Positions 11,598 through 28,037 of a stretch of DNA of 64,000 nucleotides are shown here, piece by piece. How positions within the stretch are numbered: position 1 is the stretch's first letter; every line of letters starts with the position of its first letter. The stretch is from NCBI GenBank assembly GCA_026390815.1, contig JAPLFH010000059.1, forward strand, positions 1 through 64,000. Direction: 5' to 3'. Below the pieces are notes generated by a model. It was not told where the DNA came from and did not search any database. It saw only the letters and a program-made list of their open reading frames with translations. The stretch comes from Ignavibacteriales bacterium (GTDB taxonomy: Bacteria; Bacteroidota; Ignavibacteria; Ignavibacteriales; SURF-24). The position numbers and the translations under genes were made by a program.

Positions 11598-12371
11598 TTA
11601 ATGCGTATTAATTAAATTTTGGTAAATCTCTTTTGAATCAGCAAAAATTTTAATTGATATTTTTTCCTGTAATTGATTGCTGTTAAATAAAATTAGAAAA
11701 CTATTATCACCCTTATTAACTATCTGAACGAGGTTTTTTGCAGATACAATCCTGGAATCATTATTCTGAATTAACGGTTTTAACGCGTAAAGTTTTAATT
11801 TGTCCTGGTTAAAGCCAAGATTTATTTTTACTTCCTCTGTAGAAGCGATTTTTAATTTTGCTATTACCCGGTCAGCCAGGAACTGTGAATTAAATGTTGC
11901 TTTAACTTCTGGTATGTCTATGGAAACATAATCCGCTTCCTTAAAATCACCATATGTTTCAATGCTGCCCATAGTACCGGAAAGTCCGGAACCTGTTGAA
12001 CTAATATCGCCCGAAGTATTTTTATATACGAGCGACAGAACAATAAAGCAAGCAATTGCTCCTAACGCAAATGAACCTACATAACGAACTTTTGGTGAAT
12101 TAAAATAGAATAAGAATGATTGGAATTTAATTTTCTTTCTGGATTCAAATTTTTTATTTCTTAGTTTAGAAATTACTTGATCAGAAAGATCAATATCATA
12201 TTCTTCCGTTTTTTTTCTGGCAAGTAAGGTAAAGCAAGTTTTCATTTCATCATAGTATTTCTTTGCTTCGGGATTAGTGCTCATTTCTTTTTGAAGAATT
12301 TCTTTTTCTGTCACATCGATAATATTATCCAAATCTTTGTTTACCAATTCCACCAATTTATTTTTATCCAT
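11598..12371 (-). CDS. Membrane anti-sigma factor (putative)
   Basis: The 257-residue protein has a cytoplasmic N-terminal helical region (DKNKLVELVNKDLDNIIDVTEKEILQKE, given in parts) with acidic and leucine-rich helices. A single membrane span follows near residues 96-114 (VGSFALGAIACFIVLSLVY), and the C-terminal domain of about 140 residues is outside the membrane. This layout, and its position one base after the ECF sigma gene with a GGGAGAG ribosome site, fits an anti-sigma factor. No zinc-binding HxxxCxxC motif is seen, so it would be a non-ZAS type. Sigma release would probably need proteolysis or a conformational signal; a PrsW-like protease is encoded on the same strand at 6461-7456. 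Confidence 0.65.
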   Translation of the reverse strand: MDKNKLVELVNKDLDNIIDVTEKEILQKEMSTNPEAKKYYDEMKTCFTLLARKKTEEYDIDLSDQVISKLRNKKFESRKKIKFQSFLFYFNSPKVRYVGSFALGAIACFIVLSLVYKNTSGDISSTGSGLSGTMGSIETYGDFKEADYVSIDIPEVKATFNSQFLADRVIAKLKIASTEEVKINLGFNQDKLKLYALKPLIQNNDSRIVSAKNLVQIVNKGDNSFLILFNSNQLQEKISIKIFADSKEIYQNLINTH

Positions 12372-12372
12372 C

Positions 12373-12912
12373 TTAAAACTCTCCCAATTGCACTAAAATA
12401 TTTTTAAGCAGATGTCGCGCAGTAAACAATCGAGATTTAACTTTGCTAACCGATATATTCATTGTTTCAGCAATCTCCTCGTACGAAAATTCCTGGAAGT
12501 GTTTAAGTATTATAAGTGTTTTCATATCATCTCTTAGATTGGAAATTGCAGCGTTTATTCTTTCCGATTCTTCCATTTTCAATAATTTATTTTCTGGAGT
12601 TGCAAGATCGAAGAAATTTGATTCATCGATTTCATCATTAAATTTTCTTGAATTCCGGAAGTTAATGGATTCATTAACTCCAATCCTGTAAATCCAACTA
12701 AAGAATTTGTACTTATCATCATATAAAGAAAGATTTTCATAAGCTTTAATAAACACGTTTTGTGTTACATCTTTGGCATCTTCAAAATTTTGAATCATTC
12801 TAACTACCAGGTTAAAAATTGGTTTTTGATATTTCTGGATCAACTCTTTAAAGGATGAATCATTTCCTGCAAGAATTTCTTCAACCAGAAGGTTATCAGA
12901 TTTCTCATTCAT
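12373..12912 (-). CDS. ECF-family RNA polymerase sigma factor
   Basis: This 179-residue sigma factor has region 2 (SSFKELIQKYQKPIFNLVVRM... then DAKDVTQNVFIKAYENL and FFSWIYRIGVNESINFRN) and region 4 (LRDDMKTLIILKHFQEFSYE, then EIAETMNISVSKVKSRLFTAR). The two are joined by a short acidic linker, the normal ECF plan. It directs RNA polymerase to its own set of promoters when released from its anti-sigma factor, here the next gene. The gene begins 40 bases after the end of the ABC ATPase gene, with no obvious terminator between. It may therefore have its own promoter or be read through from the large signalling operon upstream. Confidence 0.93.
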   Translation of the reverse strand: MNEKSDNLLVEEILAGNDSSFKELIQKYQKPIFNLVVRMIQNFEDAKDVTQNVFIKAYENLSLYDDKYKFFSWIYRIGVNESINFRNSRKFNDEIDESNFFDLATPENKLLKMEESERINAAISNLRDDMKTLIILKHFQEFSYEEIAETMNISVSKVKSRLFTARHLLKNILVQLGEF

Positions 12913-12952: not shown

Positions 12953-13765
12953 TTAAAAATATTCTCTTCTTAACTGTTCATAAATATCATCGGTTAATCC
13001 TTCTTTCTTTCTCAAGTCCGCGAATTTATCCAGCAAGTCATTTACAGTTAACCTGTTCTTTTCTTGTTCCGGAATATCTTCAATAATTTTTCCCCGGTAC
13101 ATCATTATTGTTCGTGTTCCTAACTCCAGCGCTTGCTGCATACTGTGCGTTATCATAATTGTTGTAAGATTATTAAATTCAACAAATTTCCTTGTCAGTT
13201 TAACCACTTGCAAAGCAGTTTTAGGATCAAGTGCTGCTGTATGCTCATCCAGTAGAAGCAGCTTTGGTTTATTAATAACAGCCATTAAAAGAGTTAATGC
13301 CTGGCGCTGCCCTCCGGAAAGAGAGCCGATTAAATTATCTAACCTGTCTTCCAACTGCATTTCCAACAGGGAAACCTCCTCTTTGAAATAATTTAAAAGA
13401 GGTTTGTTCAGGTTTATCTTCGGTGTTCTCTTCTTACTTCGGTTATAAGCTATCAATAGGTTTTCAGCAATTGTCATATGCGAGGCTGTACCGCTAAATG
13501 GATTTTGGAATACGCGGGAAACGTAGGCTGCTCTTTCAAAATCTTTTTTTCTTGTTACATCTTTTCCATCAATCTCAATTTTACCTTTATCAGAAAATAT
13601 AGTACCAGAAATTATATTAAGAAGAGTTGATTTCCCTGAGCCATTTGTTCCAATAAAAGTAAGGAATTCACCATCGTGCACTTTCAAATTTATTTTTTCT
13701 AAAGCAACAACTTCATTTATCGTTCCTGGATTAAAAATTTTTTCTGCATCGATTATATTTATCAT
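12953..13765 (-). CDS. ABC transporter ATP-binding protein (TrpZ-like family)
   Basis: This 270-residue ABC ATPase has Walker A GTNGSGKST (39-47), signature LSGGQRQ (149-155), Walker B LLLLDEH (169-175) and the switch histidine in MITHSMQQAL. The family is the one paired with BPD_transp_2 permeases and ABC_sub_bind lipoproteins (the TrpX/TrpY/TrpZ type, also called uncharacterised ABC transporters). The gene lies 28 bases after the permease-binding-protein fusion and is the last of the thirteen-gene block. Domain order and length are ordinary. Substrate is not predictable from the ATPase; relatives carry aromatic amino acids or unknown ligands. Confidence 0.93.
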   Translation of the reverse strand: MINIIDAEKIFNPGTINEVVALEKINLKVHDGEFLTFIGTNGSGKSTLLNIISGTIFSDKGKIEIDGKDVTRKKDFERAAYVSRVFQNPFSGTASHMTIAENLLIAYNRSKKRTPKINLNKPLLNYFKEEVSLLEMQLEDRLDNLIGSLSGGQRQALTLLMAVINKPKLLLLDEHTAALDPKTALQVVKLTRKFVEFNNLTTIMITHSMQQALELGTRTIMMYRGKIIEDIPEQEKNRLTVNDLLDKFADLRKKEGLTDDIYEQLRREYF

Positions 13766-13793: not shown

Positions 13794-16631
13794 TCATTTA
13801 ATAATTAATGCTGCTTGTTTTATAACAGATTCCGGAATTTGGATTTCTAACCTTTTAGCAAGCGTTAGGTTTAAGGCAAGCTTTTCCGGAACATATTTTT
13901 CAATGGGAATTTTTATAATTTGTTCTCCATCTAAAAATCTTGTAAAAAGTTTTGCAGCTTTCACTCCAACGTCATGGTAATCTGCTCCCAGAGAAATTAA
14001 TGCGCCGGCATTTACATCATCCGGTGTGTTTGTGAAATATGGGATTTTATTTTTAGCCATCATTTTGGCAATTGAAGGAACAACCATTGTAACTGTAACA
14101 TCACCTGAAGTAAGGAACAAATCAACTTTTTTATTTATCAAGGATTTTACAGCTTCGTCAATCTCATTGGAATTGGTGATAGTTCTTTCAATTAATTCAA
14201 ATCCATATTTGGAGGCAGCATTTCTTGCCATAATTGTACAGAACTCGGAATTCGATTCTGCCGGATTCCACACAATTCCAATCGTTTTTGCATGTGGAAA
14301 TATTTCACGCATTAATTTAATTGTTGATGCTACCGGTTGCGGAGTTGCTAAACCGGTAACGTTTTTAGCGTGAGTAGTGTATGATTTTGCTAATCCAGAT
14401 TTAATTGGATCTGTAACCGCACAAAAAATATGTGGAATTATTTTATTATTGTTTGCTGTTATCTGCGTTGCAACTGTAGAAACTGAAATGATGTAATCAT
14501 ATTTTTTACTAACAATATCCTTGGCAACAGATTGCGCTACTCCAAAATCTCCGTTGGCATTTTTTTTATCAACTACGATATTAAATTTTTTCAGCACACC
14601 GGAATTTGTTAGCTCGTCCAAAACACCCTGCGCAGTAGCATTTAATAAACTATTATCTGTGAACTGAAACAATGCGAGTTTTTTAAGAGTAACTTGATTT
14701 TCTTCTGATGGAAAAATTTCTACTTTTTTAGTAATAATCCCATTTTCAAGTTTTGCTGTTGCCTGGTTTAAAACATCATCTGGAATTTTAATGTTCAGCT
14801 TTTTTGCTTCATCCAGGTTTACACCAACTGTTGTTATTTTATAATTTTCGTAAGGAATTTCCGCCGGACTTTTACCTTTGATAATTTTGTCAACCATCCA
14901 CGCTGCCTGCATTCCGCTTGAAAGATATTCATAACCATAAACTATAAGTGCGCCATCCTGCATTCTTTCAACATCATTAGAAAAGATTGGAATTTTTTTT
15001 GCTCTCGCAGCTTTTACAATCGATTCGAAAGATGCATAAACATTTATGTCGGGGATAAGGAAAAAAGCATCAATTGATTTGGCGGTTAAAGACTGTGCTG
15101 CCTGGTAGACTTCGCCCGAACTGGTAATTGTTGCGCCTGCAAAGGAAATATTTTTATCTTCGGCAATATATTTTTTCAATTGATTTATATTATGGACAGA
15201 ATTGGGAAAAGCAGCATTCCAGATTGCTCCAAGTTTTAATTTCCCACCGTAAATTTTTCTAACTATTTGTAGAAGTTCTTTCATCGGCGCAGTTCCATAT
15301 ACTCCGGTTACGTTTGCAGGGTGATCCGTATTTGTTTTGCCAACTCCAATAATAAACGGATTTGCAACTGTTGCAAATACAATTGGTTTGTTCTTTATTT
15401 TTTTAACCGCAGTTTGTGTGCTTGGTGTAGAAATAGTAACATAAATATCAATATTTTGATTAATATAATTATCGATAATGGTGCTTAACGTTGGAATGTC
15501 TCCATTAGCATTTTGCTCGATGATCTTACAATTCTTGCCATCCTCATAACCAAGTTTTTTCATCTCTCTAATAAAACCATCACGGGTTAAAGTTAAGATT
15601 TCAGCATCGTTTGGAATTACGATTCCTATCTTTACAAACTTAGTTTCGTTATTATTAATGAAGAATAGCTTAGACATTAAAAGAACAATTAAAACAAGAA
15701 CAACTATTGATGCACCAGCCAAAATACTTTTCTTTTTTCTTTGAAAGAATGATTTGTTCAATTTCAATTTTTTTAGTCCGAATGCACCCGAAGCCACAAG
15801 TGTAAATAAAACAAAAACAGCTGTAATTAGTTTTAAATCATTTGGATCCAAACCAACAAAAAGAGCAAGTGCAACCATCAGGCGGAAAATTATTGAGCCA
15901 ACTATTACGCTTAACACCTTAATGTAAATTGAACGGCTTTTCAGAATTGCTTCACCAATAATTACAGAAGCCAAGCTGAAAACAATTGCGCCGACTCCCA
16001 TTCCGATATCTGAAAACCCTTGGTATTGTGCAACAAGTCCACCGGAAATTCCTACAAGTCCGTTTGCCATTGATATTCCAAATACTTTCATAAACTCAAC
16101 ATTAACACCAGAAGCTGAAACCATAATTGGGTTATCACCGGTTGCACGCATTGCAATTCCAAAATCAGTTTTAAAGAAAAGTGAAACAATAATCCATATC
16201 AAAATCATTATGCAAAGAAGACATAAGCATAACCAGAGTTCGGGATTCAGATTCGGATTAATGCTGTCAAAAAATGAAATGAAACTTGGACTATTTAATA
16301 GTGGAATATTAGACTTACCCATTAATCTTAAATTGATGGAGTAAAGCCCGGTCATCACCAAAATTCCGGAAAGCAATCCATTTATTTTAAAACGGGTGTG
16401 AATGATGCCAGTTATAAATCCAGCAGCGGCTCCAGCCAAAAATGAAATTGGTAAAACAAGAAAAGGATTCATACCGGAAATTATCAATACAGAAGCAACC
16501 GAAGCGCCGGTAGTAAAACTTCCATCAACTGTAATATCCGGGAACTCGTAAATTTTATATGTTATAAAAACGCCAAGAGCCATAAAGCTGTAAAGCAGTC
16601 CTAAGTTAACAGCACCAAGCCATAATTCCAT
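13794..16631 (-). CDS. ABC permease fused to two tandem substrate-binding domains
   Basis: This 945-residue fusion has three parts. Residues 1-285 are a BPD_transp_2 permease with many membrane spans and the loop FGIAMRATGDNPIMVSASG typical of TrpY-like permeases. After a basic linker (KKLKLNKSFFQRKKK) an extra membrane span at about 304-324 places the rest outside. Residues 333-630 and 651-945 are two ABC_sub_bind (TrpX-like) domains, related to each other: both have NANGD, VTISTPST/ISVSTVAT, an FATVANPF/FCAVTDP strand, NVTGVYG/NVTGLAT and GAIWNAAFPNS/GIVWNPAESNS. Family members are normally separate lipoproteins. A permease dimer would carry four binding domains. Start ATG overlaps the previous stop by one base. 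No frameshift is visible in the long frame, so the fusion looks real. Confidence 0.9.
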   Translation of the reverse strand: MELWLGAVNLGLLYSFMALGVFITYKIYEFPDITVDGSFTTGASVASVLIISGMNPFLVLPISFLAGAAAGFITGIIHTRFKINGLLSGILVMTGLYSINLRLMGKSNIPLLNSPSFISFFDSINPNLNPELWLCLCLLCIMILIWIIVSLFFKTDFGIAMRATGDNPIMVSASGVNVEFMKVFGISMANGLVGISGGLVAQYQGFSDIGMGVGAIVFSLASVIIGEAILKSRSIYIKVLSVIVGSIIFRLMVALALFVGLDPNDLKLITAVFVLFTLVASGAFGLKKLKLNKSFFQRKKKSILAGASIVVLVLIVLLMSKLFFINNNETKFVKIGIVIPNDAEILTLTRDGFIREMKKLGYEDGKNCKIIEQNANGDIPTLSTIIDNYINQNIDIYVTISTPSTQTAVKKIKNKPIVFATVANPFIIGVGKTNTDHPANVTGVYGTAPMKELLQIVRKIYGGKLKLGAIWNAAFPNSVHNINQLKKYIAEDKNISFAGATITSSGEVYQAAQSLTAKSIDAFFLIPDINVYASFESIVKAARAKKIPIFSNDVERMQDGALIVYGYEYLSSGMQAAWMVDKIIKGKSPAEIPYENYKITTVGVNLDEAKKLNIKIPDDVLNQATAKLENGIITKKVEIFPSEENQVTLKKLALFQFTDNSLLNATAQGVLDELTNSGVLKKFNIVVDKKNANGDFGVAQSVAKDIVSKKYDYIISVSTVATQITANNNKIIPHIFCAVTDPIKSGLAKSYTTHAKNVTGLATPQPVASTIKLMREIFPHAKTIGIVWNPAESNSEFCTIMARNAASKYGFELIERTITNSNEIDEAVKSLINKKVDLFLTSGDVTVTMVVPSIAKMMAKNKIPYFTNTPDDVNAGALISLGADYHDVGVKAAKLFTRFLDGEQIIKIPIEKYVPEKLALNLTLAKRLEIQIPESVIKQAALIIK

Positions 16632-17845
16632 TATCCTTCCTCCAGCTCAATTATGGCAAAAATTCCATTCTTGAACATTGATTTTCCCAGTGTGTGCTGA
16701 ACTTTAAGAATCTGAAGTTCGGTTAAAACACGATTAAGTTCGCTATCAAATTCTTTGATGTTTTTGTTTATCGATCCTTTCTCAAAAACATTTCCATGAA
16801 AATGAAAATTACTATCACCGGTAAAAATGGCGGCTGTGTTTTCAATTAGTTTTGATTTATCCTTTACAACTACACCAATAGCGGATATAATATTATTTAC
16901 ATTCGAAGCTTCAATTGGAAAATCAACCCACTCAGTAAAATTTTTCTGATCAAAAATATTTTCACCGGCAATTTTATTTTCGCTAATTGGAATTTTCCTT
17001 AAGTGCATCCCCAAAAATCCAGCGCTTTCTGCAAGGAGAACTATTCCAAAAAGATTTGCAGTTGAAAAATCGCGGGCAATTGAAACGACTTCATTAAGTG
17101 TTGCTGGATTATTTTCTCTTCCAAATTTAATTACTGCTGAATACGAACCGTTGAATCCAAATCCATATAAAAAATTGTACATAATTTTGGAATCAGATTG
17201 ACCAAACAGCATAAAATCCACAAATGAATTTTTCCTTGCTGGAAAGGAAAAGAAATTTCTTTTAATTACCAGGGATTCTCCGAATAAATTTTTATAATCC
17301 TCGTAAGATTCGCCAAGCGCTGCCAAACCGGCGCCATATTCTATTTCATTTGCGTTTATACTTATTACATCTTTTGAACTATAATCAGAGGAGCTCAATT
17401 TAGATTGATTTCCAATATTAAAAAGTTTTCCTGGCAGGGAAGTGTACTTTAAATATTCGATCGGGATATCATTTAGTTGCAGCTTTCCGGATTCTTCCTT
17501 TTCACTCAAATCAATTATTTCTGGAAGTTCATTTTTTGATTTTGCCAATCGGAAGACCTGGTTTAATCCGCTTATCCGGAAAACATCCAGAACTGAAGGA
17601 GTTAGAGAAAACAAAATTAATTCCCCGCCAATTTTTTTTAGATTTTTTTGAGTGCCCACGAAAATACGCAATCCAGCGCTGCTAATATAGTTTACACCTG
17701 TAAAATCAATTAGTAAAGTTCTTTCCCCTTTGGAAATTTGTTTTTCAAATTCCATTTCAATGTCGTAGGCGGTTATTCCATCAATTCTTCCTGTAGGTTC
17801 TAATGTTTTGTAATTGCCAAGTTGAGTAATACTAATTTGCAGCAT
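16631..17845 (-). CDS. STAS-domain protein with an unrecognised C-terminal domain
   Basis: Residues 1-110 form a STAS domain like anti-anti-sigma proteins, with the phosphorylation segment NYISSAGLRIFVGTQ and the strand TLLIDFTGV. The remaining 290 residues are not a family I know. They include EYGAGLAALGESYEDYK, a segment rich in aromatic residues (IKRNFFSFPARKNSFVDFMLFG) and glycine-rich NFLYGFGFNGSYSAV, and end in ELNRVLTELQILKVQHTLGKS. No signal peptide or membrane span is evident, so it is probably cytoplasmic. The stop overlaps the ATG of the permease fusion by one base (TAATG), which argues that STAS protein and transporter are made together. Stand-alone STAS and RsbW-like genes lie a few kilobases upstream in the same operon. 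Confidence 0.75.
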   Translation of the reverse strand: MLQISITQLGNYKTLEPTGRIDGITAYDIEMEFEKQISKGERTLLIDFTGVNYISSAGLRIFVGTQKNLKKIGGELILFSLTPSVLDVFRISGLNQVFRLAKSKNELPEIIDLSEKEESGKLQLNDIPIEYLKYTSLPGKLFNIGNQSKLSSSDYSSKDVISINANEIEYGAGLAALGESYEDYKNLFGESLVIKRNFFSFPARKNSFVDFMLFGQSDSKIMYNFLYGFGFNGSYSAVIKFGRENNPATLNEVVSIARDFSTANLFGIVLLAESAGFLGMHLRKIPISENKIAGENIFDQKNFTEWVDFPIEASNVNNIISAIGVVVKDKSKLIENTAAIFTGDSNFHFHGNVFEKGSINKNIKEFDSELNRVLTELQILKVQHTLGKSMFKNGIFAIIELEEG

Positions 17846-17872: not shown

Positions 17873-18673
17873 TTATATTTTTCTCATCAAAATTATTTTC
17901 CAGTCGATTCCATAAAGATTCATTTTCTTCCAGAAAATTTCTTTCTTTTTATTCACCGTTTGTTTAACAGGGAAATCCAATTCACCGCTTCCTTCATTCT
18001 GGGAGATGATGTTTTTAACTGATTTAGTAAAACTATCCTTGTAAGAAAAAGGATCATCTTCAATTAAATTCTTTCCAATTAAAGTGGGGAGACTATTATA
18101 AATTATCTTTCCGGTGTTTTCTATTATTAAAAGATCAATTGATTTATTCTGAATAGAAACTTCCTGTAAATTTTTAAGAAATGATTCCGGACGAATTAAG
18201 ATACTGATTGCACCAAGATGCTTATTATTTTTTAATGCCGGGTATTCAAAGTCCAATGCATAAAATCCTTCCACAGCCTTAAATAAGTTACTTAAAACCG
18301 GCTGCCTGGTATCTCTCAGACGGAACACCTGTTCCTGTTTACTTATATCGGCGCCTTCAAATTCTTTATAAGTTTTCGGCTCAAGGAATTTCATTTTGCC
18401 ATCTGGAGTAACAAATGCACAATCGATGCAATAAATAAAATCATTGTAAAGCTCAATTAGTTGTTCCCGGGTTTCTTTTTCATCAATGTTAGAATTGGCA
18501 ACAGCTTCTGCTTTTTTTGCAATTTCAATTTTCATCGATTGGAAAACTGAATCAATGGATTTTTCAACGTTAGAAAAAGTTAAATTTATTTCTTTATCAG
18601 GCTGGATAGATTTTTGGCAACCGGCGGAAAATAAAACAAAAAAAATAAATAGTGCTGAAGTAGTTTTTCCCAT
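17873..18673 (-). CDS. Lipoprotein with a Cache-like sensor domain
   Basis: The 266-residue protein begins with a lipoprotein signal (MGKTTSALFIFFVLFSAGCQ; cysteine 19). The mature part resembles a single Cache extracellular sensor: a long helix (IDSVFQSMKIEIAKKAEAVAN), then strands and loops such as FIYCIDCAFVTPDGKMKFLEP, GFYALDFEYPALKNNKHLGAISILIRPES and IDLLIIENTGKIIYNSLPTL. Such domains normally sit between two membrane spans of kinases or chemoreceptors; here the domain is held by a lipid instead and lacks any signalling output. ATG 18673 was chosen because GGAG lies nine bases upstream and the lipobox follows directly. It lies between the GNAT and STAS-fusion genes and may pass a signal to a membrane partner. 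Confidence 0.72.
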   Translation of the reverse strand: MGKTTSALFIFFVLFSAGCQKSIQPDKEINLTFSNVEKSIDSVFQSMKIEIAKKAEAVANSNIDEKETREQLIELYNDFIYCIDCAFVTPDGKMKFLEPKTYKEFEGADISKQEQVFRLRDTRQPVLSNLFKAVEGFYALDFEYPALKNNKHLGAISILIRPESFLKNLQEVSIQNKSIDLLIIENTGKIIYNSLPTLIGKNLIEDDPFSYKDSFTKSVKNIISQNEGSGELDFPVKQTVNKKKEIFWKKMNLYGIDWKIILMRKI

Positions 18674-18716
18674 TGTAAGAATCTCCAGAATGCTAATTTG
18701 TTGTTCGATAATTTTC

Positions 18717-19553
18717 TTATCCAAGCTCAAAAGTTGTATTTCCAAAAACCTTGTTCAGATTAATCTTTGGTTCACCTTTGTAGTACATTCGTGCGCATTC
18801 AAAAACATATTTCATATTGTACTTACGCACAAGAGCGGTAGCAAAATCATTTGCTTCCGGAATATCAAGATAAATTTCTTTTCCATCAGCAAACTCAGCA
18901 AGACTTAGAAATAATTTTTCAGCAGCGTTAGCATTTTCTGCAAATAAAGGTCCAATCTTAAATCCAACCCGGCACGGACGAATTACTCCGTATCCAATGA
19001 TTTTGTTTTCCGCCAAAATTACTTTTGCAGAAATATTCGGCTGAGTAAGCCAGCATTTTAAAAATGTTGGACGAGGGGCGGGAAACATTTCGTTATCATA
19101 TTTTAAAACATCCTCAAACGGAACATCATTCAAATCAATTACATCGCTGTATGTTTTTCCAATTAAATTATTAGCTACATATCTTAACTGTCGATAGGCA
19201 AATTTGTATCCTGATTTTTTATAATTTACTTGCTGTTCTACAACGCCATCCATTCCGGATGTTAATCCACCTAAATAGTTAAAAGCATGTTGCCAGATTT
19301 TAATTCCGTATCCTTGTGCGCGATATTTTTTTTTTACAATGTAGAAACCCATAAATCCAAATTTGTTTCCATACTTAACCGCAGATTTGCATGCAATAAT
19401 TTCTCCATCAAGTTCACCAACGAAAAATCCGTTTGGATCTGTTTTAAAAAAACAATCGCCATCGTTTAATCCAGGATTCCATCCTTCCTGTGCTGCCAGT
19501 TCAATGGCAAAATCCATTTCTTCAGATTGTAAATTTCGTACGATAAAACTCAT
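18717..19553 (-). CDS. GNAT-family N-acetyltransferase with YitH/HsdM-type C-terminal domain
   Basis: Residues 1-135 form a GNAT fold with the acetyl-CoA-binding turn YRAQGYGIKIWQ and strand KFGFMGFYIVKKK. Residues of about 145-270 form a second domain with GYGVIRPCRVGFKIGPLFAEN and IYLDIPEANDFATALVRKY, the arrangement of YitH-like two-domain acetyltransferases. The enzyme would transfer an acetyl group to an amine; the acceptor is unknown. It is embedded in the signalling block, 18 bases after a histidine kinase gene and 43 bases before the Cache lipoprotein. Nothing in the sequence says whether it modifies a signalling protein or a small molecule taken up by the transporter. Confidence 0.87.
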   Translation of the reverse strand: MSFIVRNLQSEEMDFAIELAAQEGWNPGLNDGDCFFKTDPNGFFVGELDGEIIACKSAVKYGNKFGFMGFYIVKKKYRAQGYGIKIWQHAFNYLGGLTSGMDGVVEQQVNYKKSGYKFAYRQLRYVANNLIGKTYSDVIDLNDVPFEDVLKYDNEMFPAPRPTFLKCWLTQPNISAKVILAENKIIGYGVIRPCRVGFKIGPLFAENANAAEKLFLSLAEFADGKEIYLDIPEANDFATALVRKYNMKYVFECARMYYKGEPKINLNKVFGNTTFELG

Positions 19554-19571: not shown

Positions 19572-20756
19572 CTAAGCAAATTTTGGTAAAGATATTCTAA
19601 AAGTTGCACCTTCATTTATTTTACTTTTAGCTTCGATTGCTCCGCCATTCTTTTCTACAAGTTCCTTTACAATTAACAATCCTAAACCGGTTCCTTTTTC
19701 CTTATCAGTTCCTAAAGTTGAAAGATGCTTATCCAATTTGAATAGATTTGTTATATCTTTTTCCTGGATACCAACACCGGTATCTTTAATGCTTATTACT
19801 ACCTTATCCAATGCTTTAGACAAACTGATAGTAATTTTGCCGTCCCTCGGAGTAAATTTAATTGCATTCGATAGCAGGTTTTGTATTATGGAGTGAATCA
19901 TCGTTTCATCTGCATAAATGTAAAAAGTATCTTTGTAACGAAAGATGATATTGATATTTTTGGCAGCCGCATTCGGTGATAAAAGATTTATAACTTCGTG
20001 AATAAGTTCGGTTATATTTATTTTACACGGATTAAATGATTGTTTTCCAATACTAATCCAGGACCATTGCAGCAAATTATTTAAAAGTTTAAAAATTGCA
20101 TTTGCCGAATTATGAATTTCCCTGGAATAATTCCGCAGTTCATCAGTTGTTAAAGAATTAAATTCTTCATTTAGCATTTGTGAAAAACCAAGCAATCCTG
20201 TAAACGGGCTTTTCAAATCGTGGGCTATAATTGAAAAGAATTTATCCTTGCTGGCATTCAGTTCCCCAAGTTCATCAGAGAATTTTTGTATTTCTTCTTC
20301 ATGTTTCAATCTTTCGGTAATATCTCTAAAGTTAGTACAAACAGCTTTTTCATTTCCCCATTCAATAATATTTATTGTTAAATCCATATTGCAGAAAGCA
20401 CCATCTTTTTTAAGAACTTTTCTGGCTGCAAGTACGGACCCAAAAATTTCCAAATCATTTAATTTTTTTTCTGGAAACTGATTTATTGGTTCGGGTAATA
20501 AAACAGAGTAATGCTTTCCAATTAATTCTTGTGGATTGTAACCTAAAAGTATTTTGGAGGATTTGCTGATATCTAAAATTTTGCCAGCTTTACCATCGGT
20601 AATCATTACAACATCCAGCGACCCATCAAAAATAATTTTATATTTTTTAAGTTCGTTTGAGATTGCAATATTAGAAAACTCCAAATCTTTAAATTGTGTT
20701 TCTAATAGCTCAATTTTAGATTTTAATATTTCAATATCGTCAACTATAAAAGACAT
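19572..20756 (-). CDS. PAS-domain histidine kinase
   Basis: This 394-residue cytoplasmic histidine kinase has no membrane span. Residues 1-45 are a coiled coil (IEILKSKIELLETQFKDLEFS, in part). A PAS domain follows (about 46-165; IFDGSLDVVMITDGKAGKILD... NFRDITERLKHEEE). The HisKA helix has the phosphorylated histidine in FSIIAHDLKSPF (near 180). The ATPase domain has NLLSNAIKFTPRDGKI, DTGVGI and GTGLGLLIVKELVEKNGG. The start at ATG 20756 gives MSFIVDDIE; a TTG four codons upstream is less likely. No receiver is adjacent, but a stand-alone receiver and a receiver-PP2C protein are encoded upstream in the same operon and are possible partners. It follows the LivK-like lipoprotein gene by 25 bases. 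Confidence 0.93.
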   Translation of the reverse strand: MSFIVDDIEILKSKIELLETQFKDLEFSNIAISNELKKYKIIFDGSLDVVMITDGKAGKILDISKSSKILLGYNPQELIGKHYSVLLPEPINQFPEKKLNDLEIFGSVLAARKVLKKDGAFCNMDLTINIIEWGNEKAVCTNFRDITERLKHEEEIQKFSDELGELNASKDKFFSIIAHDLKSPFTGLLGFSQMLNEEFNSLTTDELRNYSREIHNSANAIFKLLNNLLQWSWISIGKQSFNPCKINITELIHEVINLLSPNAAAKNINIIFRYKDTFYIYADETMIHSIIQNLLSNAIKFTPRDGKITISLSKALDKVVISIKDTGVGIQEKDITNLFKLDKHLSTLGTDKEKGTGLGLLIVKELVEKNGGAIEAKSKINEGATFRISLPKFA

Positions 20757-20781
20757 TTTAAAAACCAAAGTTTAATTTAGA

Positions 20782-22017
20782 TTAATCAAGCAGTACCCAT
20801 TTATATACATCACCTTGTTTTCGAACACCCCAGTAAGCATAATAACCAAACATTCTATCACCGGCGTTATTCAATGTGGTTGCCCCGGTTAATCCATAAT
20901 ATGAGTTAGCAGTTTGCTGAAAAACTTTTTTTAAGAATTGAAAATCATCGGCTCCATCTATCGATAAATAAGCAATTGCAACTATCCAAAGCGCATCATA
21001 CGCAGCTAAACCGAAAGCATCCGGCTGATAACCAATTTCACTTTCAATTTGATTTACTATTGGTTGCCATTTGAATTTGTTTGATTGGTCAAGTCCATAT
21101 GTTGGACATGGATACTTCGTCATTTCCGCAAATCGAGCGGCAGTTGTATCAGCAATTAGTTTTTCATTTAAAACCATCCCATCACTTCCATACCATTTTA
21201 CAGAATTTAAGACTGTATCCGTAATTGCCTGCTTAAAAATATTTATTACCGCATCAAAACCGGTGATGTAAACACCAACACCTGCTTTACCATACAATGC
21301 TTGTTGTTGAAGTATTTCCGCCCTTATAGTTTGAAGATAAGATGCAAAATTAACCGTGGCAGGATCATACACAACACCTTGCGTAACGGTGCCGCCAAGA
21401 TTTATAAAACTGGCTTTTGCTGCAATTTGTAATCCCTGGTTACCGGCATCATTTCCACCAAAAGGAATATATGTTTTCATTCCTTCACTCCACATAAGCT
21501 GTGCTATCGCCGCTCCTTCAATAGAATCGGAAGGACAGAACCGGAAAATATTATCGCCGGGTATTGCTAAGTTACCGGCAGTGCTTCCCTGGCTTAAAAC
21601 CAAAATGTTATTTTGGTCAGCAAATTTTTTAATTGCAGAAACTTCTTTACTGGATTGCGGTCCGATTATAAATCTTACTCCTGAAGCAGAAAGACTTTTA
21701 ATTTTTTGTAAAGCAATGGTTGTATCAAGTTTGGTATCTTCAATTTTTAATTTTAACCGAATGTTTGAAGAAATTGATGCGAGGTAGTTGTTAATATCTT
21801 TAGTTGCAATGTTTAATGCTGCTTCGCTTGCTTTACCTAATGAAGACCAATCGCCGGTTAAAGATAGTAATGCACCAACAGTTATTTCTTTATTTCCAGT
21901 TGATTGGATAGGGGATGTATTTTCATCTGAGCATGACAAAAAGTTGATTGTAATAAATACAGCCAAAACCAGTAAAGAAATCACCTTAACTTTTAAAAAT
22001 GAAATAATTCTTTTCAC
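20782..22017 (-). CDS. LivK-type substrate-binding lipoprotein
   Basis: This 411-residue lipoprotein of the Peripla_BP_6 (branched-chain amino-acid, AmiC-like) fold has a signal peptide ending in lipobox INFLSC. The core strands are EITVGALLSLTGDWSSLGKAS, VRFIIGPQSSKEVSAI and VLSQGSTAGNLAIPGDNIFR, followed by DAFGLAAYDALWIVAIAYL. Translation most likely starts at GTG 22017, six bases after GGAG; the frame is open further upstream but without a signal-like start. No LivH/LivM permeases are nearby, so this protein probably works as a ligand sensor for a neighbouring kinase, or feeds the unusual fused permease. It lies between the STAS gene and the PAS kinase gene. Confidence 0.88.
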   Translation of the reverse strand: MKRIISFLKVKVISLLVLAVFITINFLSCSDENTSPIQSTGNKEITVGALLSLTGDWSSLGKASEAALNIATKDINNYLASISSNIRLKLKIEDTKLDTTIALQKIKSLSASGVRFIIGPQSSKEVSAIKKFADQNNILVLSQGSTAGNLAIPGDNIFRFCPSDSIEGAAIAQLMWSEGMKTYIPFGGNDAGNQGLQIAAKASFINLGGTVTQGVVYDPATVNFASYLQTIRAEILQQQALYGKAGVGVYITGFDAVINIFKQAITDTVLNSVKWYGSDGMVLNEKLIADTTAARFAEMTKYPCPTYGLDQSNKFKWQPIVNQIESEIGYQPDAFGLAAYDALWIVAIAYLSIDGADDFQFLKKVFQQTANSYYGLTGATTLNNAGDRMFGYYAYWGVRKQGDVYKWVLLD

Positions 22018-22097
22018 GTTGGACTCCTTCTTTATACCAATTGAATAAAAATTTCCTTTAAGCGAACTAAGATTATCATTAGTAAAAATCAAAAAGA

Positions 22098-22430
22098 TTA
22101 AAGTTGATTTAATGCCGCAGATAAATCGGGGTAAATTGGAAATATGGCAGTAAAGCCAGCTATTTCGAAAACCTCTTTAATATAATCTTGCAGAGAACAA
22201 AGAATAATTTTTCCGTTTGCATTTTTTAGTTTTTTAGCACCAACTAAAAGAACTCTTAATCCTGCGCTGCTAATGTAATCCATCTTGGAGCACTCAATCA
22301 CAATCTTCAGAGTTCCGCCATCAATTTCCGCAATCAGCTTTTGTTCTAAAGGTGTTGAAGTATTTGAATCGAGCTTACCGTGTATCTCCAAAATTAGAAT
22401 ATCATTTTTTTTACTTTCAACTATTTCCAC
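22098..22430 (-). CDS. Anti-anti-sigma factor (STAS domain, SpoIIAA/RsbV-like)
   Basis: The 110-residue protein is a bare STAS domain. Ser54/Ser55 in MDYISSAGLRVLLVGAKKL is the usual site phosphorylated by the partner RsbW-like kinase, which is encoded next to it (22454-22876). In partner switching, the unphosphorylated protein binds the kinase and frees its target, classically a sigma factor. Dephosphorylation is done by a PP2C phosphatase, and one is encoded at 22879-24048. A GGAG-like site (AAAAGGAG) lies upstream of the ATG. The full three-protein switch is thus contiguous. Confidence 0.93.
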   Translation of the reverse strand: MEIVESKKNDILILEIHGKLDSNTSTPLEQKLIAEIDGGTLKIVIECSKMDYISSAGLRVLLVGAKKLKNANGKIILCSLQDYIKEVFEIAGFTAIFPIYPDLSAALNQL

Positions 22431-22453
22431 TTTATAAACTCCTTTTAAGAATT

Positions 22454-22876
22454 TTAGATAATTTTTTTCTTCAGAATCGTAATATTTTTATTCTCTTTCC
22501 TTTCATATTTAATTTCATCAATTAATGTCCGTACCAGGTGAAGACCCAGTCCTCCAATCGGTTTTTCGTCTAATGGTATATCGGGCTTTACTTCAGTGCT
22601 TTCCAATATATTAAAAAGATTGGCATCATCTTGAACGGTAGCTATAATATAACCATCGCTTATTTCCAGCTTAAGTAAAATCTGGTGGACTGAGTCATCT
22701 GAATAACCGTATGATATTGTATTTGTGATAATTTCATCGAGTGATAAATTTATTGTATTAATTAATGTTGCAGGTAAGTTATAAGATTTACCAAAATCAT
22801 CTATAATTTCACCCAACCTGGTAATTTCATTTATGTTGTTTGAAAAAATAGTTTCAATAAATTTTTCGTTTGCCAT
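22454..22876 (-). CDS. RsbW/SpoIIAB-like serine kinase (HATPase anti-sigma factor)
   Basis: The 140-residue protein has a single GHKL ATPase domain: INLSLDEIITNTISYGYSDD carries the N-box (E, N), VQDDANLF stands in for the G1 box, and EKPIGGLGLHLVRTLIDEI is the G2 region. It fits the RsbW family that phosphorylates STAS proteins on serine and binds an alternative target. The G1 box differs from the usual D-x-G-x-G, which is common in this family. It starts two bases after the phosphatase gene ends and is followed by the STAS gene 23 bases on. The target it would release is not identified; neither ECF sigma factor in the window is an obvious partner. Confidence 0.93.
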   Translation of the reverse strand: MANEKFIETIFSNNINEITRLGEIIDDFGKSYNLPATLINTINLSLDEIITNTISYGYSDDSVHQILLKLEISDGYIIATVQDDANLFNILESTEVKPDIPLDEKPIGGLGLHLVRTLIDEIKYERKENKNITILKKKII

Positions 22877-22878
22877 CT

Positions 22879-24048
22879 TTATGCATTCCCAAGATACTTA
22901 ATTGCAAGTACAGTTATATCATCTGATTGCTGTACACCAACAGAATAATTATGAACATCTTTAACAATAAATTTACACAAGTCAGTTACATTCAGATTGA
23001 AATTTTCCTCAAGTCTGGAGATCAATCTTTGCTCGGAATACAAATCTTCCTTATAATCGAAGGCTTCTGTAACCCCATCCGTAAAGAGAAATAAACTATC
23101 ATTTGGTTTTAGAGTAATTTTCTTTACAGCAAAAGGAAGGCTCTCAATTATTCCAAGTGCAATTCCACCTGTCATTTCAAGTTCTTCAACTTTACCTTCA
23201 TTCCAAATTATGTATGGTGGGTTGTGTCCGCCATTTGCATATTCAATTTCACCGGTAGTAGTATTTAGTATGCCATAAAAAAGTGTTACAAACATAGAAG
23301 CAATACTTTCCGGGCAAAGTAAATTGTTAACGTGTGCAATACAATCTCCGGGTGAAAGTCCCTTTAAAGCGGTAGCTTTTAATAAAGTTCTGCTTACTGC
23401 CATAAAAATGGCAGCCGGAACGCCTTTTCCGGACACATCAGCAATTACAAATCCAAGTCTGTTATTGTCAATCATAAAAAAGTCAAAGAAATCACCACCG
23501 ACTTCTTTTGCTGCGTTCATAGAAGCAAATATTTCAAATTCTTTTCTATCAGGAAAGGGAGGAAAAACCTTTGGTAATATTGCTTCCTGAATACTGCGGG
23601 CAATTGTTAGATCGTGCTGGATTGCAATTAACTGGTCATGTTCCTTTTGAAAATTTCTTAGCAAGTCAAGTTCCAGAATCGTTTTATTTATTGTAGTTTC
23701 CAGGTCAGTAAAATCAACTGGCTTTGTTACAAAGTCAAAAGCGCCGCGGTTCATTGCAGTTCTAATATTATCCATATCACCATAAGCAGAAACAATTACT
23801 GTTCGAAGAGCAGGGTTTTTTAATTCATTCAATCTTGCCAGCAAAGTCAATCCGTCCATTTCAGGCATATTAATGTCTGTAAGAATAAGTCCAATGTCCG
23901 GGTGTTCTAATAATTTAGTAAGAGCTTGCAAACCGTTGTATGCAAAAACAAAATCATATTCATTATCCCGAATCTTTTTTCTGAATCTTTGTCTTATTAA
24001 CGATTCCAGATCCGGTTCATCATCAACAACCATAATTTTTTCGGGCAT
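22879..24048 (-). CDS. Response regulator with PP2C (SpoIIE/RsbU-type) phosphatase output
   Basis: Residues 1-125 form a receiver domain with phospho-acceptor Asp58 (LILTDINMPEMDG), the threonine/serine switch region (TVIVSAYGD) and the lysine in DFVTKPVDF. After a helical linker, residues of about 185-387 form a PP2C phosphatase of the SpoIIE type: AAKEVGGDFFDFFMI, GFVIADVSGKGVPAAIFMAV, ANGGHNPPYI and LFLFTDGVTEAFD carry the metal-binding aspartates. This is the RsbU/RssB-like fusion by which a two-component signal dephosphorylates a STAS protein. ATG 24048 was chosen; a GTG codon precedes it directly. It lies between the stand-alone receiver and the RsbW-like gene. Confidence 0.95.
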   Translation of the reverse strand: MPEKIMVVDDEPDLESLIRQRFRKKIRDNEYDFVFAYNGLQALTKLLEHPDIGLILTDINMPEMDGLTLLARLNELKNPALRTVIVSAYGDMDNIRTAMNRGAFDFVTKPVDFTDLETTINKTILELDLLRNFQKEHDQLIAIQHDLTIARSIQEAILPKVFPPFPDRKEFEIFASMNAAKEVGGDFFDFFMIDNNRLGFVIADVSGKGVPAAIFMAVSRTLLKATALKGLSPGDCIAHVNNLLCPESIASMFVTLFYGILNTTTGEIEYANGGHNPPYIIWNEGKVEELEMTGGIALGIIESLPFAVKKITLKPNDSLFLFTDGVTEAFDYKEDLYSEQRLISRLEENFNLNVTDLCKFIVKDVHNYSVGVQQSDDITVLAIKYLGNA

Positions 24049-24061
24049 CACTTCCTCGTAT

Positions 24062-24436
24062 TTATGTATTTATAGAAATTATTGCATTTTTCAATTCATC
24101 AAAGTCGATTGGTTTTGTAAGGTATTTATCGGCTCCGTACCGGATGGCTTTACTGTGTTTTTCTTCATCATCGTAAGCGGTAATCATAAATACTTTCAGG
24201 TGCGGAAATTTTTCTTTAATAACTTTCAGTAATTCCAAACCTGTCATACCAGGCATGTTAATATCTGAAAGAATAAGAACCACTTCGGCAGAACTTGTTG
24301 AGTTTAGGAATTTGATTGCGTCTTCGGCAGAAAATGCAAAGCAAAATTCTATTTTCTCATCTTTCAATTCATTCTTAAATTTTTGCTTAAACAACGATTG
24401 AATATCAAGTTCATCATCGACCACTAAAATTTTCAT
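24062..24436 (-). CDS. Stand-alone CheY-like response regulator
   Basis: The 124-residue receiver domain has no output domain. The acidic pair DDE (7-9), phospho-acceptor Asp58 in LILSDINMPGMTG, the switch region FMITAYDDEE and the lysine in KYLTKPIDF are all present. It starts six bases after the end of the large sensor kinase gene, which is its likely phosphodonor. It may act as a phosphate sink, a relay to the next gene product, or by protein contact. Its close similarity in sequence and length to the receiver of the next gene suggests a duplication. Confidence 0.94.
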   Translation of the reverse strand: MKILVVDDELDIQSLFKQKFKNELKDEKIEFCFAFSAEDAIKFLNSTSSAEVVLILSDINMPGMTGLELLKVIKEKFPHLKVFMITAYDDEEKHSKAIRYGADKYLTKPIDFDELKNAIISINT

Positions 24437-24442
24437 TATTTA

Positions 24443-27061
24443 TCACGTTAAGTTTTTGGGTAGAGTAATTATAAATTCTGCAAAACTGCCTTCATCCGAT
24501 TCAACTTTTATCTCGCCTTTGTGCTCCTGTACAATAATATCGAAGCTGAGAGATAATCCTAAACCGGTTCCTTTTCCTGTTGGCTTTGTGGTAAAAAACG
24601 GGTTGAAGATTTTATCCAGAACTTCTTTTGGAATTCCTTTCCCGTTGTCGCGTATTCTCACTTCAATTTTATTATCGAGATTTTTGGTGGTTATTGTTAA
24701 AGTTGGAGAATAGTTATCTCTTTTTTCTTTTTTCTTTTCGTTTACTGAGTAACAGGCATTGTTGATTGTATTCAAAAATACTCTGCTTAAATTTTGGGGA
24801 ACAACATTTATTTGCTCAAGTGTTTGATCATAATTGGTTTCTATTTTAACATTGAATGCAGAATCCTGAGCCCGGAAACCGTGGTAAGCAAGATTAACAT
24901 ATTCTGCCAAAAGATTATTGATATCAGTTTTTTGAAATTCCCCTGACTTACCACGTGAATGCAGAAGCATTCCTTTCACAATACTATCAGCTCGTTTACC
25001 GTGTTCATTAATCTTTCTTACGTTCTGCTCTAAATCGTTTAAAATCTCATTTACATACTCAACTGTTTTTGTTTCAATGTTATCCTTCTGATTTTCAAAT
25101 TCCACTCTAAGTTCCTTCGCAAGATCGATTGAAAGTTCGGAGAAATTATTTACAAAGTTCAGCGGATTTTTAATCTCGTGCGCAATACCTGCCGTTAACT
25201 GCCCAAGCGAAGCCATCTTTTCAGCTTGAACCAACTGAGCCTGAGCTTCTTTTAATTCTTTATGTGCTGCATTAATAGCTTCATAGGCAAAAGCATTATC
25301 CAATGCAATAGCGGTATAAGTGGCAAGGTTATTCATTATATCATAATGGATTTGATCATATACATTTTTTTCAAAGCTTTGAACAGAAATAGCTCCTATA
25401 ACTCTATTTTCAACTACCAATGGAAAGTAAATCATTGATGAGGAATAACCGCCAACCTTAGGTTTAACTCTTTGTGGAATGTAGCGAGCATATTCTTCAT
25501 CTACATCATTCATAAAAACTGGTTTACGATTATCCACACACCAAACTGCAAACCTGTTTTTATCTTCCATACTAAAACTGAATTGTGGAAGTGTTTCTCC
25601 TCTTTCTATGGAGAGTTTGCATTCAAGTTGATTTTCTTTTTTGTTGTAAACTAAAATCAGGAATATAGTTGCATCCAGCAATGAGTTTACGCTTTCATAA
25701 ACCATGTTAAAGATCAGTTCAAGGTTAAGAGTTGATGTAATTTTCTGACCAATCTCACTAAGTGTTTTAACATTTTTGTATGCGGAATCGAGTTTAAGAT
25801 TTTTATCTTTTAACTCAATTGTTCTTTGTTCAACTTTTTCTTCCAACGTGTGGCTATAATCTTCTAATTCATCATTTGCAGTTTTTAATTTCTGGATTGT
25901 ATCTCTAAGCGCTTTCTGCATAGAAATGAAGGACTGGTTAAGTTTGCCAATTTCATCCCTGGATTTTATTTCTGGAAGTTTAACATCAAAGTTGCCGGCA
26001 GAAAATTCCTTTGTTGCTGTTGCAAGCTGTCTTAATGATCCGGTTATTGAACGGGAAATGAGGATAACCACAATTAATAAAAATAATCCTCCGCCAACAC
26101 CCAGGATAAAAACGGTTTCACTTAGATTTGTAACATCAGCTGTCAATTCATCAATTGGGTATACAATCCCCAATGACCAGCCATTTACAGTTATAGGCGC
26201 ATAAGAAATCCAACTTGCCTTTCCACTCTTAAGACTTTTATAATCCGGCTTTTCAAATCCAGTTTTACCCTGAATCATTTTTCTTCCAATTTCTCTTAAG
26301 GCTGGATAATTCCGATCTTCGGCAATACTAAAAATGGTTTCATTCATTATTGTTTCTTTAATAGGATGAGTTACCAACTTGCCGGTTTTAGAAATCATAA
26401 ATCCATACCCGGATTTGGATACTCTAATGGAGGAAACAATTTTCTGAAGCCAATCGAGAGAAACATCCGCGGTAATTATACCAATAAATTTCTTTTCACC
26501 TTTAATAGTTTTGTAAATTGGAACGGCATAAGTGGACATTACAATATTACCACCACCTTCATCTAAATAAGGTTCGCTCCAGATTGGTTTGTTAAGCTCT
26601 TTTGGTATTTGGTACCAATCCATATGTGGATAATCATATGAACCATCGCCAAGGTTGGTGTATTTTATTTGTTCGTTGTATTTATAATAATAAGGGGCAA
26701 AGTATTTTATATTCCGGGAAAACTCATACGGTTCAAAAGCAATTGTTACACCAAATATTTCAATATTGTTTTCAACTATCAAGCGAATAGTTTGAAGAAG
26801 ATTTTCTTTAGAGTAATTTGAATTTTGAATAAGGATGGCAAAATTGTCCGGAACTTTTGCTACGGAATTTAGCACTTTCTCTAACTTAACAACCGTACTT
26901 GATGTAAAATTTCTCGCATTCTCTTCAATGTTTTTTTCAATTATGTTTTTGGAAACTTTGTAGTTATATAAAAAAATTACTGCAAAAACGAGTGAAATAC
27001 TGGAGAAGATCAGAAGGATCATCTTAAAAGCTAATCCTCTGTTAATTAAAATCTTTTTCAT
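24443..27061 (-). CDS. Membrane histidine kinase with Cache, HAMP and GAF domains
   Basis: This 872-residue sensor kinase has a first membrane span at about 11-33. An extracellular dCache domain follows to about 310 (IEIFGVTIAFEPYEFSRN, YDYPHMDWYQIPKELNKPIW, then SYAPITVNGWSLGIVYPIDEL). A second span lies at 312-335 and HAMP at about 335-390 (FSAGNFDVKLPEIKSRDEIG). A coiled coil comes next, then GAF at about 440-590. HisKA has its histidine near 629 (AGIAHEIKNPLNFVNNF). The ATPase domain has NACYSVNEKK, DNGKGI and FFTTKPTGKGTGLGLSLS. It probably binds a small molecule outside the cell and phosphorylates the receiver encoded six bases downstream. An NMT1-like binding protein gene lies 13 bases upstream and may supply the ligand. 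Confidence 0.94.
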   Translation of the reverse strand: MKKILINRGLAFKMILLIFSSISLVFAVIFLYNYKVSKNIIEKNIEENARNFTSSTVVKLEKVLNSVAKVPDNFAILIQNSNYSKENLLQTIRLIVENNIEIFGVTIAFEPYEFSRNIKYFAPYYYKYNEQIKYTNLGDGSYDYPHMDWYQIPKELNKPIWSEPYLDEGGGNIVMSTYAVPIYKTIKGEKKFIGIITADVSLDWLQKIVSSIRVSKSGYGFMISKTGKLVTHPIKETIMNETIFSIAEDRNYPALREIGRKMIQGKTGFEKPDYKSLKSGKASWISYAPITVNGWSLGIVYPIDELTADVTNLSETVFILGVGGGLFLLIVVILISRSITGSLRQLATATKEFSAGNFDVKLPEIKSRDEIGKLNQSFISMQKALRDTIQKLKTANDELEDYSHTLEEKVEQRTIELKDKNLKLDSAYKNVKTLSEIGQKITSTLNLELIFNMVYESVNSLLDATIFLILVYNKKENQLECKLSIERGETLPQFSFSMEDKNRFAVWCVDNRKPVFMNDVDEEYARYIPQRVKPKVGGYSSSMIYFPLVVENRVIGAISVQSFEKNVYDQIHYDIMNNLATYTAIALDNAFAYEAINAAHKELKEAQAQLVQAEKMASLGQLTAGIAHEIKNPLNFVNNFSELSIDLAKELRVEFENQKDNIETKTVEYVNEILNDLEQNVRKINEHGKRADSIVKGMLLHSRGKSGEFQKTDINNLLAEYVNLAYHGFRAQDSAFNVKIETNYDQTLEQINVVPQNLSRVFLNTINNACYSVNEKKKEKRDNYSPTLTITTKNLDNKIEVRIRDNGKGIPKEVLDKIFNPFFTTKPTGKGTGLGLSLSFDIIVQEHKGEIKVESDEGSFAEFIITLPKNLT

Positions 27062-27074
27062 TTTTTCCGCTACG

Positions 27075-28037
27075 CTAAAATGGCTGATAGAATAAATTAA
27101 AATCCGGAATCTTTTTTATTAATTTGTTTTCCAATAATTTGTTTGCAACAAATTCGTAATCTTTTTGAGAAAGCATTTCAAATTTTTCATAAACCTTTTT
27201 TGGAAAGATTAAGTCCTTCATCCTGTTCAACATCCAACGTTCGTGCGCACGGTTAACTGGCTGTTTAGCTGCTTTCATATATTTGGTAACAATGTTTAGT
27301 GCTTCCTCCGATTTTTCAAATGCTAACTTCCAACCTTCCAAAGTTGCAAGGATGAAATCTTTGCAAAGCTTCGGATCTTTTTTAAAAGTAGATTCTAAAC
27401 AATAAATGCCTTCTTCAGGAAAATTCAATCCGTAATCCGCAAAAAAGAAAGTTGAAAGTTCATCTTCATTTAAGCCGGAATTAATAATTGTATGATATTC
27501 ATTATACCACATTGCAGAAGTAACATTAACACCATCCATTAAAAAAAGATTTATAGAACTTCCCTGTGGAATTATTTTTACATCAAGGTTAAATTTTTTG
27601 AAAAATGCCATCGGTTGGATTTGAAAATCGCCACCCCAGATTCCAATTTTTTTTCCATTCATATCTTGCGGAGTTTTAATTCCGCTAGATTTTTTTGCAA
27701 TTAGCATTAAAGCAGATTTATTGACTAACTGAGAAATGTTGATAACCTTAATTCCTTTATCGCGTAACTGGATTGCGTTAGTAAGCCAGAGAGAAGCAAA
27801 GTCGACCTTACCTTTTTCTATTTCTACCGATGAAGGATTATTTGGACCACCCGTTAATATTTTCAAATCGATGCCGTATTTTTTATAAATACCTTTTTCG
27901 TAAGCCATAAAATACCCGGCAAATTGTGCTTGTGGTATCCAGTGTGGAATGAAAGAGATTTTCTTCAAATCAGATTGTGTAAATGCAACAGCAGAAGTAA
28001 ACATAATTAGAACAAGTATCGATATTAATACCCTCAT
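27075..28037 (-). CDS. NMT1/THI5-like periplasmic substrate-binding protein
   Basis: The 320-residue protein has a signal peptide (MRVLISILVLIMFTSAVAFTQ) and the NMT1 fold: FIPHWIPQAQFAGYFMAYEKGIYKK, then GIDLKILTGGPNNPSS, VDFASLWLTNAIQLRDKGI and MNGKKIGIWGGDFQIQP. Family members bind thiamine-pyrimidine precursors, sulfonates, riboflavin or unknown organics. No permease or ATPase gene of the matching SsuB/SsuC type is nearby and no TPP riboswitch is seen. It is the first gene of the block, just ahead of a Cache histidine kinase. This suggests a periplasmic sensor role. ATG 28037 is chosen because AAGGAAA precedes it and the signal peptide begins there. Confidence 0.88.
   Translation of the reverse strand: MRVLISILVLIMFTSAVAFTQSDLKKISFIPHWIPQAQFAGYFMAYEKGIYKKYGIDLKILTGGPNNPSSVEIEKGKVDFASLWLTNAIQLRDKGIKVINISQLVNKSALMLIAKKSSGIKTPQDMNGKKIGIWGGDFQIQPMAFFKKFNLDVKIIPQGSSINLFLMDGVNVTSAMWYNEYHTIINSGLNEDELSTFFFADYGLNFPEEGIYCLESTFKKDPKLCKDFILATLEGWKLAFEKSEEALNIVTKYMKAAKQPVNRAHERWMLNRMKDLIFPKKVYEKFEMLSQKDYEFVANKLLENKLIKKIPDFNLFYQPF

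Follow-up and report, generated by a model that had tools for sequence, protein, structure and literature searches.

Importers carrying their receptors on the channel itself include GlnPQ and OpuA, both built on channels of the BPD_transp_1 type, with other binding-domain families than those described here. OpuA, where a binding domain of a single type is covalently attached to the channel subunit, is regulated osmotically via domains on its ATPase. GlnPQ from L. lactis features two different binding domains per channel subunit, with four sites per dimer (PMC8025302). In importers of the TrpXYZ/CD0873 type, which combine PF04392 receptors with PF02653 permeases, the binding proteins, such as S. 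suis TrpX and C. difficile CD0873, are separate. The S. suis TrpX residues A127, T108, T129, D152 and N233 are common to the pneumococcal, V. cholerae and C. difficile proteins, while Q273 is a mark of tryptophan binders (PMC9382623; PMC6816091). A different kind of control is found in MlaFEDB, where the STAS protein MlaB binds the ATPase MlaF: a 25 residue C-terminal extension of MlaF touches MlaB, MlaF stability requires MlaB, and a phosphomimetic residue at Thr52 weakens the binding (PMC7367683).

The window analyzed here is a stretch of 64,000 nucleotides from an Ignavibacteriales bacterium; the fused gene, STAS-X, the ATPase, the sigma and anti-sigma genes and the partner-switching genes described below lie on its minus strand. 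A fused permease/binding-protein gene, identified by Pfam and by its homologues, occupies positions 13794..16631: from an ATG start, a single stop-free frame encodes a protein of 945 aa. Pfam locates BPD_transp_2 at aa 8-276 (107.5 bits) and, behind it, two ABC_sub_bind stretches (366 bits summed), which a genome-wide profile search finds, within the same frame, at 14757-15632 and 13809-14678. The preliminary description had reported one uninterrupted 945-codon frame joining a permease, a membrane span and two ABC_sub_bind domains, and both the ORF and Pfam confirm it. No RNA family or tandem repeat was found in the region.

The permease part (aa 1-285; 15777..16631) was delimited by Pfam, by hydropathy and charge of the loops, and by the helices of a low-confidence model; it is predicted to be N-out, with its final basic loop in the cytoplasm. 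An extra helix follows at aa 297-328 (15648..15743), indicated by the predicted model and by a hydropathy peak at aa 307-325, which comes after the basic loop KKLKLNKSFFQRKKK (seven Lys/Arg); the first binding domain starts a few residues on. An equivalent peak is present in all of the 12 fused proteins discussed below. Because a basic loop is followed by a span, the positive-inside rule would place the binding domains outside the membrane, the extra helix probably carrying the chain out to them.

The first of these domains, of type a (aa 331-628; 14748..15641), was assigned by fold match and by its position in a tree, the second, of type c (aa 648-944; 13800..14690), by the tree; a linker of about 20 residues separates them. 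In the fold search, the domain a model matches 3lkv, 3lft and 6hni with Z values of 30-32 (32.2 over 293 residues for 3lkv); the predicted model of the fusion, which rests on three sequences, is poor in the membrane part and adequate for fold matching in the binding part. The adjacent ABC ATPase (12953..13765; 270 aa) features Walker A, LSGGQ, DEHTAALD and H-loop motifs. Permease, receptor and ATPase thus occur together, every one above Pfam cut-offs. The best NCBIfam match is NF041285, the ABC_SBP_TrpX equivalog, with 365.2 bits summed over the two domains, below the cut-off of 390; the earlier assignment to the TrpXYZ type agrees with this match, within that limit.

The locus therefore shares its permease, binding-domain and ATPase families with TrpXYZ/CD0873-type importers, but its receptors are fused in one frame instead of forming a separate lipoprotein, come in one to three types across the fusion family, have altered ligand-holding residues and are accompanied by a STAS-containing partner, here called STAS-X. 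In layout it resembles GlnPQ, where two unlike binding domains are also found in tandem on the channel subunit, and, for the covalent attachment itself, OpuA. It differs from both in containing in these regions, according to Pfam, only BPD_transp_2 and ABC_sub_bind, in the extra membrane span and in having three-domain relatives; the single domain type of OpuA is a further difference.

The two binding domains of the window are 30% identical. A tree of 56 binding domains unites the first domains of all 12 fusions in one clade, type a (support 100/100). Type c (99/98) collects the last domains of the window, G001, G018, G1018, G267 and G1017; type b (100/100) the second domains of G455, G353, G359, G267 and G1017. 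As judged from this tree, three old domain types are combined in the orders a, a-c (as in the window), a-b and a-b-c; a recent tandem duplication, as the source of the two domains in the window, is rejected by the same tree. The difference between the two domains, already noticed in the preliminary description, is thus refined into a difference between old types, within a family that also has one- and three-domain forms. Three of the 12 fusions contain one binding domain (G338, G332 and G427, the latter ending 57 bases from a contig edge, yet with its own stop); seven contain two (window, G001, G018, G1018, G455, G353, G359); G267 (1247 aa) and G1017 (1253 aa) show three stretches each by Pfam. 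A dimer would accordingly display two, four or six receptors, and the four suggested earlier for the window would follow from the presence of a single permease gene. The a-b-c order may be ancestral or may have been assembled by transfer. Three adjacent ABC_sub_bind genes are found in another locus (L085, 24-4585), one of which encodes a protein of 775 aa whose two domains group near the fusion types c and b.

At the positions corresponding to T108, A127, T129, D152, N233 and Q273 of S. suis TrpX, domain a features T, T, A, G, I and Y, and domain c T, A, T, T, V and Y. The domain a pattern, T-T-A-x-G, is constant in all 12 fusions where it could be read. Since the residues holding the aromatic ligand in TrpX, CD0873 and VC_1101 have partly given way to others in every type, tryptophan, tyrosine or phenylalanine, as the name TrpX would imply, are unlikely ligands on sequence grounds. 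D152 is gone from types a, b and c, and is also missing in places from the separate binding proteins of the family: the evidence hence disfavours aromatic amino acids, and names no ligand. In G001 (L014, 10341-15089), the fused gene is separated from the ATPase by genes for a Xan_ur_permease, a 5TM-SpoIIE protein, a STAS protein and a Schlafen AlbA_2 protein; the nucleobase permease may be a hint at the ligand.

While correct as to the fused receptors, the earlier reading had missed three elements of the locus: the STAS-X partner, the tail of the ATPase and the partner-switching genes. STAS-X (16631..17845; 404 aa) is encoded by a gene sharing one base with the fused gene. Its STAS domain (aa 1-106; 17528..17845) is supported by Pfam, fold search and alignment; the rest, named C-domain (aa 109-404; 16634..17521), belongs to no recognised family, as its approximately 300 residues have no sequence match in Pfam, NCBIfam or PDB. 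Plasmid matches to STAS-X cover the STAS part only, none extending over the C-domain, and the predicted model of the C-domain, resting on three sequences, is too poor to use (mean pLDDT 39.5). A search with the C-domain retrieved 20 of 391 genomes of the class, with one copy each, in all 20 immediately next to the gene of a permease of this type; the permease/STAS-X pairs of G210 and G247 were also confirmed by reading the loci. In all 12 fused loci a relative of STAS-X is encoded ahead of the permease, with a gap of at most 11 nt (L079 contains just the end of this gene); relatives also occur in split systems, which encode the binding protein separately. Permease loci without STAS-X are split systems (L004, L086, L088, L098-L105, L142). 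As read from gene order, the linkage to STAS-X is tighter than the fusion itself.

The ATPase provides a second correlation. Wherever a STAS-X locus includes an ATPase gene (20 cases of 20), the protein extends 66-67 residues beyond the H-loop and ends in a common tail (12956..13009 in the window, LTDDIYEQLRREYF). Among the ATPases from nine loci without STAS-X, eight end sooner and one carries a tail of unrelated sequence. A tree of the ATPases with their tails left out is compatible with one common origin for the STAS-X loci (p-AU 0.374, no rejection), and repeated independent gain of STAS-X plus tail finds no support there; the co-occurrence may thus reflect one inheritance, and repeated co-evolution is not claimed.

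Within the STAS domain, S55, S56, A57 and G58 are invariant across 18 aligned STAS-X proteins. Ser56 corresponds in the alignment to the first Ser of the SpoIIAA DSSG motif, the phosphorylated Ser58, and the SSxG switch position is kept. By fold search, the nearest STAS domains are those of SpoIIAA and RsbV, with MlaB lower in the list. SpoIIAA and RsbV, to which the locus is also akin for the kinase and phosphatase genes in the cluster, are lone domains controlling sigma factors, whereas STAS-X has the additional C-domain and is genetically linked to an ABC permease. The resemblance to MlaFB lies in the association of a STAS protein with an ABC ATPase bearing a C-terminal extension, and in a Ser/Thr at the STAS switch position (PMC7367683); the parallel between the tails is functional, resting on the presence of an extension and not on similarity of tail sequences. 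MlaB is the lone short STAS domain of a lipid transporter, while STAS-X has a 300-residue extra domain, and, at variance with MlaFB, a SpoIIE phosphatase gene is found near the window locus and 13 other STAS-X loci. By analogy, the system of the window is GlnPQ-like in receptor layout and perhaps MlaFB-like in control, being a member of neither family.

These features suggest a multi-receptor fused importer, whose pump would be set by an MlaB-like, possibly phospho-switched STAS-X, a reading towards which the evidence leans slightly. The importer would be a homodimer of the 945-aa fused subunit, with two copies of the ATPase; each fused chain would tether class I binding domains a and c in the periplasm, so that, with two unlike domains per chain, one channel would have four receptors around it, all competing for docking as those of GlnPQ do. 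Types a and c probably bind different small molecules, other than the usual aromatic amino acids. STAS-X would lie on the cytoplasmic side, its STAS domain binding the ATPase with the aid of the ATPase tail, as MlaB does with MlaF, and would set assembly or activity of the pump. Ser56 might be phosphorylated by an RsbW-like kinase and freed by an RsbU-like phosphatase. Of this picture, the sequences themselves show the fusion, the domain types, the linkage in the operon, the common tail and the conserved serine, whereas topology, dimer, ligands, the contact of STAS-X with the ATPase and phospho-control are deduced.

The C-domain may also be read differently. Ten of its residues are invariant in the 18 STAS-X proteins (G, G, GE, D, P, E, HxH, H), and the GE, D, E, HxH and H among them form a pattern frequent in enzymes; the domain, as said, is without a known family. 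The locus could then encode a plain uptake transporter, STAS-X being an unrelated enzyme or sensor that shares operon and substrate, with the invariant Glu, Asp and His as the site, catalytic or metal-holding, where the imported compound is acted upon. This is rather unlikely, as the STAS domain keeps the switch serine, the ATPase tail tracks STAS-X, and STAS-X is never found away from the permease in the 20 class genomes.

Genes for the partners that an MlaB-like, phospho-switched STAS-X might use are found upstream of the fused locus, on the same strand, their order matching that in G001 (L014): an RsbV-like STAS protein (22098..22430), an RsbW-like kinase with HATPase_c_2 (22454..22876) and an RsbU-like receiver-SpoIIE phosphatase (22879..24051). 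They are part of a larger signalling cluster (19572-28067, one strand), mostly retained in G001 (L014), which also encodes an NMT1/THI5-like binding protein, a dCache-GAF histidine kinase, a lone receiver, a Peripla_BP_6 protein and a PAS histidine kinase. Between the PAS kinase and STAS-X, a Cache-type sensor and a two-domain acetyltransferase (17873-19553) are not shared by G001. Of 23 STAS-X loci, 14 (window included) have a SpoIIE-type gene within the stretch fetched, versus none of 12 other permease loci, counts that come from related, non-independent genomes and from stretches of unequal length. An RsbW gene is found near fewer STAS-X loci, and neither an RsbU nor an RsbW gene occurs in the fetched stretches of L015, L080-L084, L140 and L141. 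Against phospho-control of STAS-X, the separate RsbV-like protein of the window could be the only partner of the kinase.

Downstream of the ATPase lie an ECF-type sigma factor gene (12373..12912) and, judged by position only, a gene for a likely anti-sigma protein (11598..12371; 257 aa, no Pfam match). The surroundings of the fused gene may also be taken to indicate a sensor rather than a pump, the state of the ligand passing via the transporter to STAS-X, and from there to the partner-switching and ECF sigma circuit. The two histidine kinases, the lone receiver, the RsbU/W/V-like proteins and the sigma gene, the latter retained in G001 and G018, would fit this, as would a protein of 633 aa from the same genome, where ABC_sub_bind (G000 contig 56, 87009-87746; L003) precedes a histidine kinase (HisKA, HATPase_c), indicating that the binding fold doubles as a sensor. 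Yet all catalytic motifs are kept in the ATPase, and several families have the trio without nearby kinase or phosphatase genes: a purely sensory role appears improbable.

The fusion is carried by 12 sampled genomes from four families, window included. Full-length homologues were found in G001, of the same family (72% identity), and in G018, of another family of the order (55%); within the order, 3 of 164 genomes have the fusion, and nine more came from class-wide and family-wide searches, all genomes searched being samples. The fused permeases cluster in a tree, with moderate support (84/79). An assembly artefact or a chance read-through of separate genes, for which only the general risk of draft genomes speaks and which the preliminary description had named as able to undo its claim, is practically excluded by the homologues in other genomes: the fusion is real and old.

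The same description had considered that the architecture might be common and already described. Beyond the 12 fusions from the class samples, none was found outside the class among 395 genomes of the phylum, where matches are short and in separate frames, and none, by frame length, in 245 Bacillota genomes, among the matches listed. No description of the fusion was found in the open literature, subscription papers being largely outside this scope. A scan of genome contigs gave one distant relative, unfused. Plasmid matches spanning the whole query correspond, in annotated records, to separate permease and binding-protein genes, and were rejected. So was a long frame from Bacillota (L142, 1346-3238; 630 aa), in which permease and ATPase are joined, the binding protein being encoded separately further upstream.

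GlnPQ and OpuA are the best-known cases of fused receptors; in the loci described here a further ABC family has the same feature, combining three receptor types as a, a-b, a-c and a-b-c, and for two genomes six receptor sites are predicted. In a wider form, STAS-X would be a dedicated phospho-switched subunit of a whole ABC importer family, which gains and loses receptor types, up to six per dimer; this generalization is possible, and should be regarded as tentative. The study of MlaFB raised two questions, namely whether further ABC transporters are under STAS control and whether phosphorylation occurs at the switch residue (PMC7367683). As these loci combine a STAS-ABC couple with genes for a kinase and a phosphatase, both become testable. 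If the proposed role of STAS-X is true, partner switching would act directly on membrane transport, and the STAS-X loci offer a test case for on/off control of such pumps.
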